Shown here one piece after another: positions 9,925-13,631 of a stretch of DNA of 13,631 bases. The stretch is taken from assembly GCA_021827245.1 (NCBI GenBank), contig JAKAWN010000158.1, positions 1 through 13,631 on the forward strand, given 5' to 3'. The position numbers and the translations under genes were made by a program. Source of the DNA: Acidobacteriota bacterium. GTDB taxonomy: Bacteria; Acidobacteriota; Terriglobia; UBA7540. Position 1 is the stretch's first letter. Each line of letters starts with the position of its first letter. The notes below the pieces were generated by a model, which saw only the letters and a program-made list of their open reading frames with translations, was not told the origin of the DNA and made no database searches.

Positions 9925-10440
9925 GTGGAAAATCTCAAATCTCTGATCCGTGAAGTTCCGGACTTTCCCAAACCGGGAATTCTGTTTTACGACATCACCA
10001 CTCTGCTGAAAGACCCCGTGGGGCTGCACTGGGCGGTGGATTCGCTGGCCAATCATTACGTGGGACAGGTCATCGACCGCGTGGTGGGAATTGAGGCGCG
10101 AGGCTTTATCTTTGCGCCCATGGTGGCTTATCGCCTGAACGCAGGGTTCGTGCCCGTGCGCAAGCCCAAGAAGCTTCCCGCTGAGACTTCGCGAGTCGAG
10201 TATAGCCTGGAATACGGGAAAGATGCACTCGAGGTCCATCGCGACGCCATCAGCGAAGGACAGCAAGTGCTGATTATCGACGACCTGCTGGCCACCGGAG
10301 GCACAGCGGCGGCCGTCGCTCAACTGGTGGAGTCACTGGGAGGAAATGTGGTGGGTCTGGGTTTCCTGATTGAACTCGAATTCCTGAAGGGAAAAGAGAA
10401 GCTCTCGAAATACAATCTGCATTCGGTTTTGAAGTATTGA
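9925..10440 (+). CDS. apt: Adenine phosphoribosyltransferase
   Basis: Apt joins adenine to phosphoribosyl pyrophosphate to make AMP in purine salvage, in the cytosol. The 171-residue product has the N-terminal [17 protein letters not shown] segment typical of Apt and [12 protein letters not shown] in the middle. The PRPP-binding motif is [13 protein letters not shown] (115-127), and the C-terminus [15 protein letters not shown] is as in Bacillus Apt, so the end is natural. Translation starts at GTG 9925, with AGAGGAG seven bases upstream. The TGA stop overlaps the ATG of a small downstream frame (TGATG), an arrangement typical of translational coupling. Confidence 0.96.
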
Positions 10441-10649: not shown

Positions 10650-11315
10650 TTATTCCTTTTCAGTCTCTCCCTCAGGCTGAAGGGCCTTGAGGATAGTATC
10701 CAGGAAATAACTTTCTGGCAGGGAGCCTTCGAGCGATTGTTCCGCGTTGATCACCGTCTTGGGTACAGCGTGGACGCGATACTGGGTAACCAGGTCGGGA
10801 AATTCAGTAGCCTCGATGCAGTCGGCCGTGACGTGTTCGCTCTCCAGCGCAAACTGATGGGCCAGGCGCACCGCCCGGGGACAATGCGGTCACGTGGGAG
10901 TGACAAAAACCTCAAGGTGCACCGGCTGGCTCAGTCCGGCAAGCTTCTCCTTGCTCTCGGCCCCCAGACCTGAGCTTCCTTTTGAGACGTCGATGATTGC
11001 CTCCAGCAGAGTAGAGAATTCGTAACCCGCCGGCATCCCGTAATACCTTATTCCGTAGTCCTTGCCGTTGCGGATCACTGTCGCCGGGACTTTGTCGATG
11101 CCGTATTCAGCCGCCTTCTCTTTGTCGACGATAAAGTCATAAACTTCGAGGGAGAGCTGGTCGGACAATCCGGCGAGTTCTTCGAGCACCTGCCGCGTCT
11201 CGCGCCCGTACTCGAGATTGAGTTCCTGGGTGAAATGAATGATCTTTACGGACCCTGCCATTCCGCCGAGTCGTCGGCGGATTTCCGCGGAGTCTTCCTC
11301 CCGCAGTAGTACCAT
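10650..11315 (-). CDS. Two-domain thioredoxin/glutaredoxin-like disulfide oxidoreductase, probable selenoprotein (in-frame TGA = Sec)
   Basis: Reading the TGA at 10890-10892 as selenocysteine gives 221 residues, the usual size of the protein-disulfide-oxidoreductase (glutaredoxin-like) family. The N-terminal thioredoxin fold spans about 1-110, with KIIHFTQ and cis-proline P77 (KVPATVI). Its usual CxxC is replaced: the aligned stretch reads LNLEYGRET, without cysteine. The C-terminal fold spans about 130-221. EVFVTPT is followed by the TGA codon (U142), then PHCPRA, so the active site reads U-P-H-C with C145; cis-proline P185 is in HAVPKTVI. The same frame is open on both sides of the TGA. I chose the ATG at 11315 because AAGGAG lies five bases upstream; an ATG at 11330 is possible. 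It lies downstream of mutS2 on the same strand, 148 bases away. Confidence 0.85.
10862..10892 (-). promoter_or_regulatory. UGA codon plus candidate bacterial SECIS hairpin
   Basis: On the minus strand the UGA (10892-10890) is followed by 11 bases and then CCGGGCG-GUG-CGCCUGG (10878-10862). This is seven consecutive pairs, one of them G-U, with a GUG loop; opening the top pair gives the five-base loop GGUGC. The loop begins 18 bases after the UGA. Bacterial SECIS elements lie inside the coding region just 3' of the UGA, with a short apical stem and a G at the start of the loop, and this matches. The selA, selB, selC and selD genes are not in the window. Confidence 0.65.
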
Positions 11316-11463: not shown

Positions 11464-13631
11464 TTAGTTCCTCAGCTCGACGATGGTGGCGCCACCGCCG
11501 CCTTCGCCCTGCGGAGCAAGATAAAACTTTGCGACGTGGGGATGTGAGGCGAACATTTCATGGAGATTCTTGCGAAGGATTCCTTTGCCAAACCCGTGAA
11601 TCACGCGCAGCCGCGCGCGCCCTGCCGTGTACGCCCGGTCCAGAAACTCGTCTACACGCTCGAGCGCCTCTTCCGCCGTGTTTCCAATTACATTGATTTC
11701 ATCAGGCACGTCGCCCGACGAGGCCTCAACCCGCATGCCCAGGCGGCCGTGGGCTGCGGGAGCGTGTTCTGATGGCTCTGTCCTCCGGGCAACGATCTGT
11801 GCTTCGTCTCCAGTGATTCGCAGGCGCAAATTTCCCACCTGCACCTGGAGCTGCCCATCATCGTCAATTTCTGTGACGGTGCCGGGCGTGGAAAGGTTCG
11901 GAATTCGTACCTGGTCGCCAACCGCAACAGGCGCTTCGGGCCCGGCCGGGCGTTCCGGCGCCGGCTCGGCCAGAACATTCAGCACCTGCGCGTTCCATTC
12001 TTCGCGAACTTCCTGCTTCAGTGCCACCACTTTGCGGTCTACGCCCTTAGGCAAGCGCGGTTTCTCGACCCGGGCGCGCAACTCGGCCAGAACGTCGTCC
12101 CAATGCTTTTCCATCTTCCGCAGCGTTTCTTCAAGACGTGTGTCGAGTTCTTTCAGTGTCGCGTGGCGCTCCTGCCGGGCTTTGGACTCCAGTTCGGCCG
12201 CGCGCTCCTGAAGTTTCCGCTCCTCGGCTTGCAGGTTCGCCAATTGCGCCTCATACATCGCTCTCTGCTCGTGGAGAGATTGGAGAAGCGCCGAAGCCTC
12301 GGCCTCCTCTGACCCGATCAGTTCGCGAGCCTTTTCGAGAATGTCTTCGGGCAGGCCCAGGCGCGCCGCGATATCGACGGCGTTGGACTTTCCGGGAAGG
12401 CCCACCAGCAGCCGGTAAGTAGGTTGCAAGGTTTCCTCGTCGAACTCCATGGCGGCGTTTTCAGCCTCCGGAGTCTCGCTGCCATAGGCTTTCAGCCGTC
12501 CATGATGAGTGGTCACAAGAGTCAGCGCGCGCGACTTTCTGAAGCGCTCGAGAATGGCGATTGCCAGCGCCGCGCCTTCGCCGGGCTCGGTGGTCGAGCC
12601 CAGTTCGTCCAGCAGCACCAGATCGCCCGGTCCGACAACTTCAACCATGTCGCGGATGCTGTTGATGTGAGCCGAGAATGTGCTCAAATTCGCCTGGATG
12701 GACTGCTGATCGCCGATGTCCGCCAGCACGCGATAGAACAACGGCAGTTGAGCTTCACTGGCGGCGACCGGCAGCCCGGCCTGCGCCATCAGGGCGGCAA
12801 TCCCGACGGTCTTGAGCGCTACCGTCTTGCCACCGGCATTCGGCCCGCTGATTACCATCAGGCTCTTGGGCTCCTGTAATGCAATTGCGAGCGGCACCGA
12901 TTTCAGGCCGGTTTTCCGGAGACTGTATTCGAGCAGAGGATGGCGAACCTCCGAGAGCAAAAGCCGCCGGCCGGTGTTGAACAGCGGAATACAACACTCG
13001 TAGGCTATGGCGAAAGCGGCTTTGGCAAAGACCATGTCCAGCTCGGCAAGGATGGACGCCGCGCCCAGAAGGTCGGCCAGGCGAGCCCGGAGCTTTCCCG
13101 TGAAATTGCCCAGGATACGTTGCGTTTCGGCATACTCGCGGTCCTCAAGTTCCACCAGCTCATTGTTCAGCGGCACGGTTTCCATGGGTTCGAGGAAGAC
13201 GGTGGCACCCGATGAGCTTGCACCGTGGATCACTCCTGGGACGTGCCGCTTTTCTTCCGCACGGATAGGAATTACCAGCCGCTCGTTGCGCAGCATCACG
13301 ACGGCGTCCTGCAACACCTTGTCACGGCTGAGGCGCCGCATCAGGCTCTCAAGCGCTTTCTGAATTTCCTGCCGCGCCAGCTCGATCGCACGGCGAATGC
13401 GGCCAAGCTCCGGGCTGGCGGAGGAATCAAGCGTGCCGTCGGGGTGGATTTTGCCATTCAACTCTGAAAGCAGAGAGCGGAAGTCGGGCAGTACGGCAGT
13501 TAGGTCCGTAAGATGCGGGAAGGCGTCCCGGTCGAACAGCTTCCTTATTTCCTGCGCCTTTTGCATCACCGCGAGAACGACCAGAATCTCGCGCGCGGTG
13601 CATGAAGCTCCTTCGACGTGCAGAGATCGGA
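11464..13631 (-). CDS. mutS2: MutS2 ATPase/Smr protein, 5' end beyond the window
   Basis: MutS2 is a MutS-like dimeric ATPase involved in suppressing recombination or, as shown in Bacillus, in rescuing collided ribosomes. The frame stays open to the right edge: 721 residues are visible and about 60-70 N-terminal residues are missing (family about 780). An ATG at 13566 or GTG at 13569 is internal, not the true start. The Walker A GPNAGGKT is at 12823-12846, followed by NLSTFSAHI and the Walker B VLLDELGS. A long charged coiled coil follows (about 12000-12300), then a KOW-like beta region (VGDQVRIPNLSTPGTV) and a C-terminal Smr domain. The Smr HGFGKG is at 11581-11598. The usual LDLRG-type start of the Smr domain is INVIG here. 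Confidence 0.95.
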   Translation of the reverse strand, partial: RSLHVEGASCTAREILVVLAVMQKAQEIRKLFDRDAFPHLTDLTAVLPDFRSLLSELNGKIHPDGTLDSSASPELGRIRRAIELARQEIQKALESLMRRLSRDKVLQDAVVMLRNERLVIPIRAEEKRHVPGVIHGASSSGATVFLEPMETVPLNNELVELEDREYAETQRILGNFTGKLRARLADLLGAASILAELDMVFAKAAFAIAYECCIPLFNTGRRLLLSEVRHPLLEYSLRKTGLKSVPLAIALQEPKSLMVISGPNAGGKTVALKTVGIAALMAQAGLPVAASEAQLPLFYRVLADIGDQQSIQANLSTFSAHINSIRDMVEVVGPGDLVLLDELGSTTEPGEGAALAIAILERFRKSRALTLVTTHHGRLKAYGSETPEAENAAMEFDEETLQPTYRLLVGLPGKSNAVDIAARLGLPEDILEKARELIGSEEAEASALLQSLHEQRAMYEAQLANLQAEERKLQERAAELESKARQERHATLKELDTRLEETLRKMEKHWDDVLAELRARVEKPRLPKGVDRKVVALKQEVREEWNAQVLNVLAEPAPERPAGPEAPVAVGDQVRIPNLSTPGTVTEIDDDGQLQVQVGNLRLRITGDEAQIVARRTEPSEHAPAAHGRLGMRVEASSGDVPDEINVIGNTAEEALERVDEFLDRAYTAGRARLRVIHGFGKGILRKNLHEMFASHPHVAKFYLAPQGEGGGGATIVELRN

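Follow-up and report, generated by a model that had tools for sequence, protein, structure and literature searches.

A TGA-interrupted gene between mutS2 and apt

The window (the whole stretch of acidobacterial DNA analyzed here, 13,631 nucleotides) carries on its minus strand a two-domain glutaredoxin-like gene that is crossed by one in-frame TGA and ends with TAA at 10652-10650 (Table 1). The original prediction was right that a single TGA interrupts an otherwise continuous frame; it did not give the strand, which is minus. Translation of this frame places EVFVTPT upstream and PHCPRA downstream of the TGA, just as had been described. The read-through product is a two-domain protein of 221 residues in which the TGA supplies residue 142 and PHC comes next; with a start at ATG 11330 that residue would be number 147. 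A GGAG abuts ATG 11330, a GGAG lies 5 bases upstream of ATG 11315, and the aligned Cys is residue 142 in the majority of the first 60 homologues from the database. The spacing of the GGAG and the position of the homologues' Cys therefore favor ATG 11315. (The starts of the compared rows were picked by script to match the expected length and carry no weight in this choice.) The corresponding gene products in the protein database, P0050 from the window and P0056, stop at the TGA, each at 141 residues.

Table 1. Features at the locus (positions within the window)
Feature	Positions	Strand	Remarks
apt, adenine phosphoribosyltransferase	9925..10440	+	convergent neighbor; ordinary TGA stop
Selenoprotein PDO-like gene (proposed), TIGR02187	10650..11315	-	two Trx domains, the N-terminal one lacking CxxC and the C-terminal one bearing UPHC
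SECIS-like hairpin	10862..10878	-	6 bp, loop GGUGC, or 7 bp, loop GUG
In-frame TGA read as selenocysteine (proposed)	10890..10892	-	first Cys position of the C-terminal CxxC
Residues 31-37, ELNLEYG	11205..11225	-	N-terminal redox motif absent; double-site relatives have, e.g., ELECQYC
mutS2	11464..13569	-	upstream neighbor; open frame continues to the end of the window

Family, fold and redox sites

The read-through protein matches TIGR02187 (PDO_seleno_TRX) at 268.1 bits, with NCBI's curated cut-off at 185, over positions 2-209 of the 209-position profile, and a Thioredoxin_3 domain spans the TGA site. Its closest solved relatives by sequence are the glutaredoxin-like proteins (PDO) of Pyrococcus and Aquifex (1j08 at 1.1e-51). 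An AlphaFold2 model, in which Cys stands in for Sec, consists of two tandem thioredoxin folds. Its mean pLDDT is 91.6, with 71 for the block surrounding the absent N-terminal motif. The nearest solved folds are those of Pyrococcus PDO (TM 0.92-0.93), and the likeness extends over the Pyrococcus and Aquifex set (1j08, 1a8l, 2ywm, 2ayt; TM 0.89-0.93).

The redox motif of the C-terminal domain, UPHC, occupies residues 142-145. The N-terminal domain has no CxxC, a point absent from the original prediction, and there is no Cys anywhere in residues 1-141. In the window's clade the N-terminal motif is ELNLEYG-like, as opposed to ELECQYC-like elsewhere. In the family-level group of the nearest genome the N-terminal CxxC is absent from 29 of 29 informative rows; the 30th (L119) is cut before the motif. 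PDOs are described as thermophile proteins with a CXXC in each domain; their thiol-transferase activity requires the C-terminal site, and their isomerase activity requires both (PMC7465337). The window protein differs from the Pyrococcus and Aquifex PDOs in having one site, and in that site being UxxC.

Conservation of the TGA

A protein search yielded 7429 homologues, and what is said here of these proteins covers the 120 listed. The site is CxxC in 116 of the 120 and WxxC in two (P0023, P0055), and the remaining two (P0050, P0056) end at this codon. P0056, which comes from another contig, is 94% identical to the window protein and has its stop at the same codon. The alignment at residue 142 that had been proposed finds Cys in nearly all of the listed homologues.

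Genomes were scanned with the N-terminal half of the protein only, so that Cys or Sec at the site could not bias the scan, and the best 80 of 417 loci were taken. At the site, 37 of these 80 have TGA and 43 TGC or TGT; the TGA loci among them are labeled as Acidobacteria, Chloroflexi, Rokubacteria, Ignavibacterium, Zixibacteria and Cloacimonadota. L001, the nearest, belongs to an acidobacterial MAG (G001). The family-level group of G001 comprises 39 genomes; the gene is over the cut-off in 30 of them, and 27 of the 30 have TGA. In a sample of the phylum the gene is found in 72 of 396 genomes (73 matches), and the internal stops are all TGA, none TAA or TAG. The codon was read from DNA in 72 of the 73 matches (30 TGA, 23 TGC, 19 TGT); the 73rd is G001, whose TGA was read in L001, for a total of 31 TGA in 73. 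Beyond the TGA, the alignment of the 37 TGA loci reaches query residue 211-216 without a second stop, L010, at a contig end, being the exception. Two 81-residue matches with one TGA (in G016 and G009) were set aside as not selenoproteins: their TGA immediately precedes a likely start.

These data bear on the notion that a sequencing error, or decay of a Cys-type gene by mutation, produced the TGA. In its favor, the window comes from one contig only and close Cys-type relatives exist (P0001 is 76% identical); but the same stop is found in P0056, TGA occupies the codon in 27 of 30 family genomes and in several phyla, internal stops of the over-cut-off matches are TGA only, and the frame is intact on either side. 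Since the same-codon TGA is found in independently sequenced genomes, an error or pseudogene is rejected, its likelihood being close to nil.

Reassignment of TGA to Trp in the lineage (as in genetic code 4) can point to P0023 and P0055, JGI homologues that read TWPHC at the site; this is known from protein letters, and perhaps reflects either TGA rendered as Trp by a gene caller under code 4 or a true TGG. It is contradicted by der and apt, which end with ordinary TGA stops in the window (two of the 11 other genes checked), by Cys as the otherwise aligned residue, and by the Sec machinery of relatives (see below). With genes of the window itself ending in TGA, reassignment is also rejected, as something hardly credible.

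A hairpin that accompanies the TGA

The original prediction of a 7-bp hairpin with a G-led loop, 11 bases past the TGA, holds: in the window, CCGGGCG-GTG-CGCCTGG starts with the 12th base after the TGA, and 11 bases lie between. In its alternative, 6-bp form, CCGGGC pairs with GCCUGG around GGUGC. When synonymous codons are shuffled, a stem as long as that of the window arises in 3% of draws; the same control applied across rows gives a mean z of -1.29 for 38 TGA rows vs -0.35 for 43 Cys rows. When the 5' arm is fixed at bases 12-17 past the TGA and the loop limited to 3-5 bases, an unbroken run of 5 pairs or longer is seen in 54 of 70 TGA rows vs 4 of 79 Cys rows, all of them rows related by descent and hence not independent draws; in the other 16 TGA rows the run at this position is shorter than 5 pairs. 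Allowing the loop to move weakens the contrast (mean stem 5.8 bp for TGA vs 4.1 bp for Cys). Pair types are exchanged on both arms: C-G, A-U and G-C are found at base 13, and G-C and C-G at base 15. The commonest loops in the rows are CGUGC, GGUC and GGUCC; GGUC is also the loop found in the SECIS of E. coli fdhF.

Four Cys rows retain the hairpin: L023, L059, L128 and L165. L023 lies within the window's clade and L128 adjoins the TGA-bearing L143 on the tree; the hairpins of these two are as expected for recent changes from Sec to Cys. L059 and L165 have no comparable TGA neighbor on the tree. Rfam has no match at gathering thresholds over the whole window; an Rfam lncRNA match near the site, far below threshold, is dismissed as chance.

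Across related genes, then, the hairpin tracks TGA and not Cys, and it is a predicted SECIS. This also weighs on the alternative that the TGA is a true stop, with the 141-residue N-terminal half as the product and read-through absent or minor. The database does hold products of just that length for the window and for P0056. However, sequence is conserved past the TGA in the 37 TGA loci, the truncated product would be deprived of the only CxxC, and the hairpin goes with the TGA; a true stop is accordingly quite improbable, if somewhat less so than an error or a changed code.

Selenocysteine machinery in relatives

Sec machinery was tallied in the genomes of relatives: the 37 genomes with TGA from the best 80 of 417 loci, and 13 genomes with Cys. 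Of the former, 35 have selA over the cut-off and 31 selB, which is under the cut-off or absent in the other six; at least one of SelA, SelB and tRNA-Sec is found in 36. A tRNA-Sec scoring at least 67 bits was found in 28 of the 33 TGA genomes searched for it and not in the other five; the 67-bit line separates cleanly, because the next tRNA matches score about 51 bits. In one near relative, G004 (the genome of L004), neither selA, selB nor tRNA-Sec turned up in the 2.0 Mb searched. The nearest relative, G001, has all of selA, selB, tRNA-Sec and selD. Among the Cys genomes selA is present in 7 of 13, selB in 6 of 13 and tRNA-Sec in 3 of 5 searched. With Sec machinery in 7 of 13 Cys-type genomes, the machinery alone cannot single out the Sec form of the gene.

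SelD is over the cut-off in 10 of 10 genomes tried, and in 8 of the 10 there is one TGA inside the match. Those with the internal TGA include the nearest relatives G001, G062 and G063, and also G023, whose TIGR02187 gene is Cys-type; SelD has no TGA in G005 and G051, where the TIGR02187 gene is likewise Cys-type.

The gene is thus very probably (we put it at roughly 0.93) a selenoprotein gene of the TIGR02187 family, a variant with a single redox site whose UGA would be read as Sec. What has been observed is a conserved TGA, a conserved hairpin, Sec machinery in relatives, a model with two thioredoxin folds, and the absence of an N-terminal CxxC. The first three of these bear out the central proposal of the original prediction, a UxxC selenoprotein of the two-domain glutaredoxin-like (PDO) family.

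Turnover of Sec and Cys at one locus

The gene order mutS2 - PDO-like gene - apt - acylphosphatase - glpD - CBS gene - ispF - ispD is common to the window, L001 and L004, and of the 26 loci L001-L026, 22 have apt next to the gene, Cys-type L005 and L023 included. Given this shared order, the Sec and Cys forms at these loci are orthologues that occupy a single place. In a tree of 137 rows, in which database proteins were called Cys from their protein letters, 15 Sec/Cys changes are required, at least 6 of them forced by well-supported branches; a tree of 149 rows, with codons taken from DNA, requires 18. Both are trees of the 'quick' type, with many weak branches and long-branch warnings.

Among the same best 80 of 417 loci, a thioredoxin-reductase-like flavoprotein is encoded close by in 11 of the 43 Cys loci (L039, L044, L050, L052, L055, L056, L061, L067, L068, L069 and L071) and in none of 37 TGA loci, counting at most three open frames per side within 4 kb, on contigs of which several are short. 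One representative of these flavoproteins scores 297 bits with TRX_reduct (cut-off 343) and 350 with AhpF (cut-off 503), under both.

Does Sec go with absence of the N-terminal site?

In the 149 rows the N-terminal CxxC is missing from 40 of 70 TGA rows vs 6 of 79 Cys rows, and present in 30 and 73, respectively; L182, L183 and L191 are counted as having it, though their shortened starts hide the motif. Of the six Cys rows without it, three (L005, L023, L102) belong to the window's clade and L184 to a different single-site TGA clade, and L163 and L196 stand apart on the tree. This raw contrast is striking, but the N-terminal CxxC needs only 6 changes on the tree, with 3 independent pairs on well-supported branches, so a paired test cannot reach significance. 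Moreover, among the first 60 proteins in the list of 120 homologues, 56 are without N-terminal CxxC, and 52 of those 56 are Cys-type; single-site Cys forms are thus common, which counts against a link to selenium. The single-site Cys proteins of the database fall in the same clade as TGA genes. A causal connection between Sec and the absence of the N-terminal site is suggestive at most, and the tree does not order the two states in time.

Several rows are worth recording individually. G015 and G026 have second TIGR02187 copies (L151 and L152), with TGA at the same codon and the N-terminal CxxC kept, so that these genomes hold both single-site and double-site selenium forms; neither second copy has the hairpin at the tested place (a run of 1 pair). 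The TGA-type L066 and L073 of Rokubacteria retain just one Cys at the N-terminal motif, which reads GSETC; here the N-terminal site was apparently lost separately.

A more ambitious reading is that gain of Sec made the N-terminal CxxC dispensable; that single-site Sec PDOs then originated several times (in the window's clade, an acidobacterial FGGSESG clade, the L168/L172/L189 clade and a Rokubacteria pair), so that an enzyme shuffling disulfides with two sites became a selenium reductase with one; and that Sec afterwards reverted to Cys repeatedly at the same locus, leaving a relic SECIS in places. We consider this reading less likely than not.

Relation to known selenoproteins

The N-terminal domain of AhpF has tandem thioredoxin folds and only one CxxC. 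The window protein is like it in the tandem folds (TM 0.79-0.86), but stands alone, without the flavoprotein part, and its score with the PDO model is far above those with AhpF models. Selenocysteine-containing thioredoxin and glutaredoxin are single-domain proteins. They share UxxC in a thioredoxin fold with the window protein and are listed in two reviews as families of their own (PMC13188914, PMC9312934).

The suggestion that the two-domain form was undescribed as a selenoprotein is wrong: the TIGR02187 family has been published since 2006. A survey of that year includes, among its selenoprotein families, a 'homolog of AhpF, amino-terminal domain' from Carboxydothermus and Symbiobacterium, and credits Acidobacteria with 4 selenoproteins belonging to 3 families (PMC1794560). 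A stop-codon screen of 2007 has a glutaredoxin-like TGA family, with CHY_0740 (PMC1914089), and UxxC is given for the AhpF N-terminal-homolog family as TIGR02187 in reviews of 2022 (PMC9312934) and 2026 (PMC13188914). A TIGR02187 selenoprotein was reported from Asgard archaea in 2024 (PMC11227280), and an acidobacterium with 3 known selenoproteins in 2025 (PMC12013277). The published members are like the window's in family, UxxC and selenoprotein status. The difference, a clade without N-terminal CxxC when 30 of 70 TGA rows keep it, is drawn within the rows compared here. The selenoprotein family is already known; what we did not find described, in a search of open-licence PMC papers, is the single-site form, with UxxC as the sole redox site, and the repeated Sec/Cys exchange at one conserved locus.

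Proposed mechanism and significance

Insertion of Sec itself, the direction of electron flow, the substrate and the electron donor are what we infer in the following scheme. The hairpin that begins 12 bases past the UGA would serve as SECIS and be bound by SelB with Sec-tRNA; the UGA would be decoded as selenocysteine to yield the 221-residue protein of two fused thioredoxin folds. At the C-terminal motif, U142-P-H-C145, the selenolate would attack a substrate disulfide and Cys145 would resolve the Se-S bond. The N-terminal fold, which keeps its shape, would be a scaffold or docking surface, since there is no CxxC in it. Recharging would fall to a separate enzyme of the thioredoxin-reductase type; archaeal PDOs receive electrons from a thioredoxin reductase (PMC7278568). 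The protein would most likely act, then, as a single-site, selenium-dependent disulfide reductase.

For the organisms, this shows the selenium PDO to be usual within an acidobacterial family where 27 of the 30 genomes that have the gene carry the TGA, and where ordinary gene calling truncates it at the UGA, as with P0050 and P0056. For the protein family, it offers a natural comparison between Sec and Cys orthologues that share one syntenic locus, with L023 as a Cys member that has kept the hairpin. Such a comparison lets one ask what a redox enzyme gains from selenium, and whether it can then do without a second redox site.
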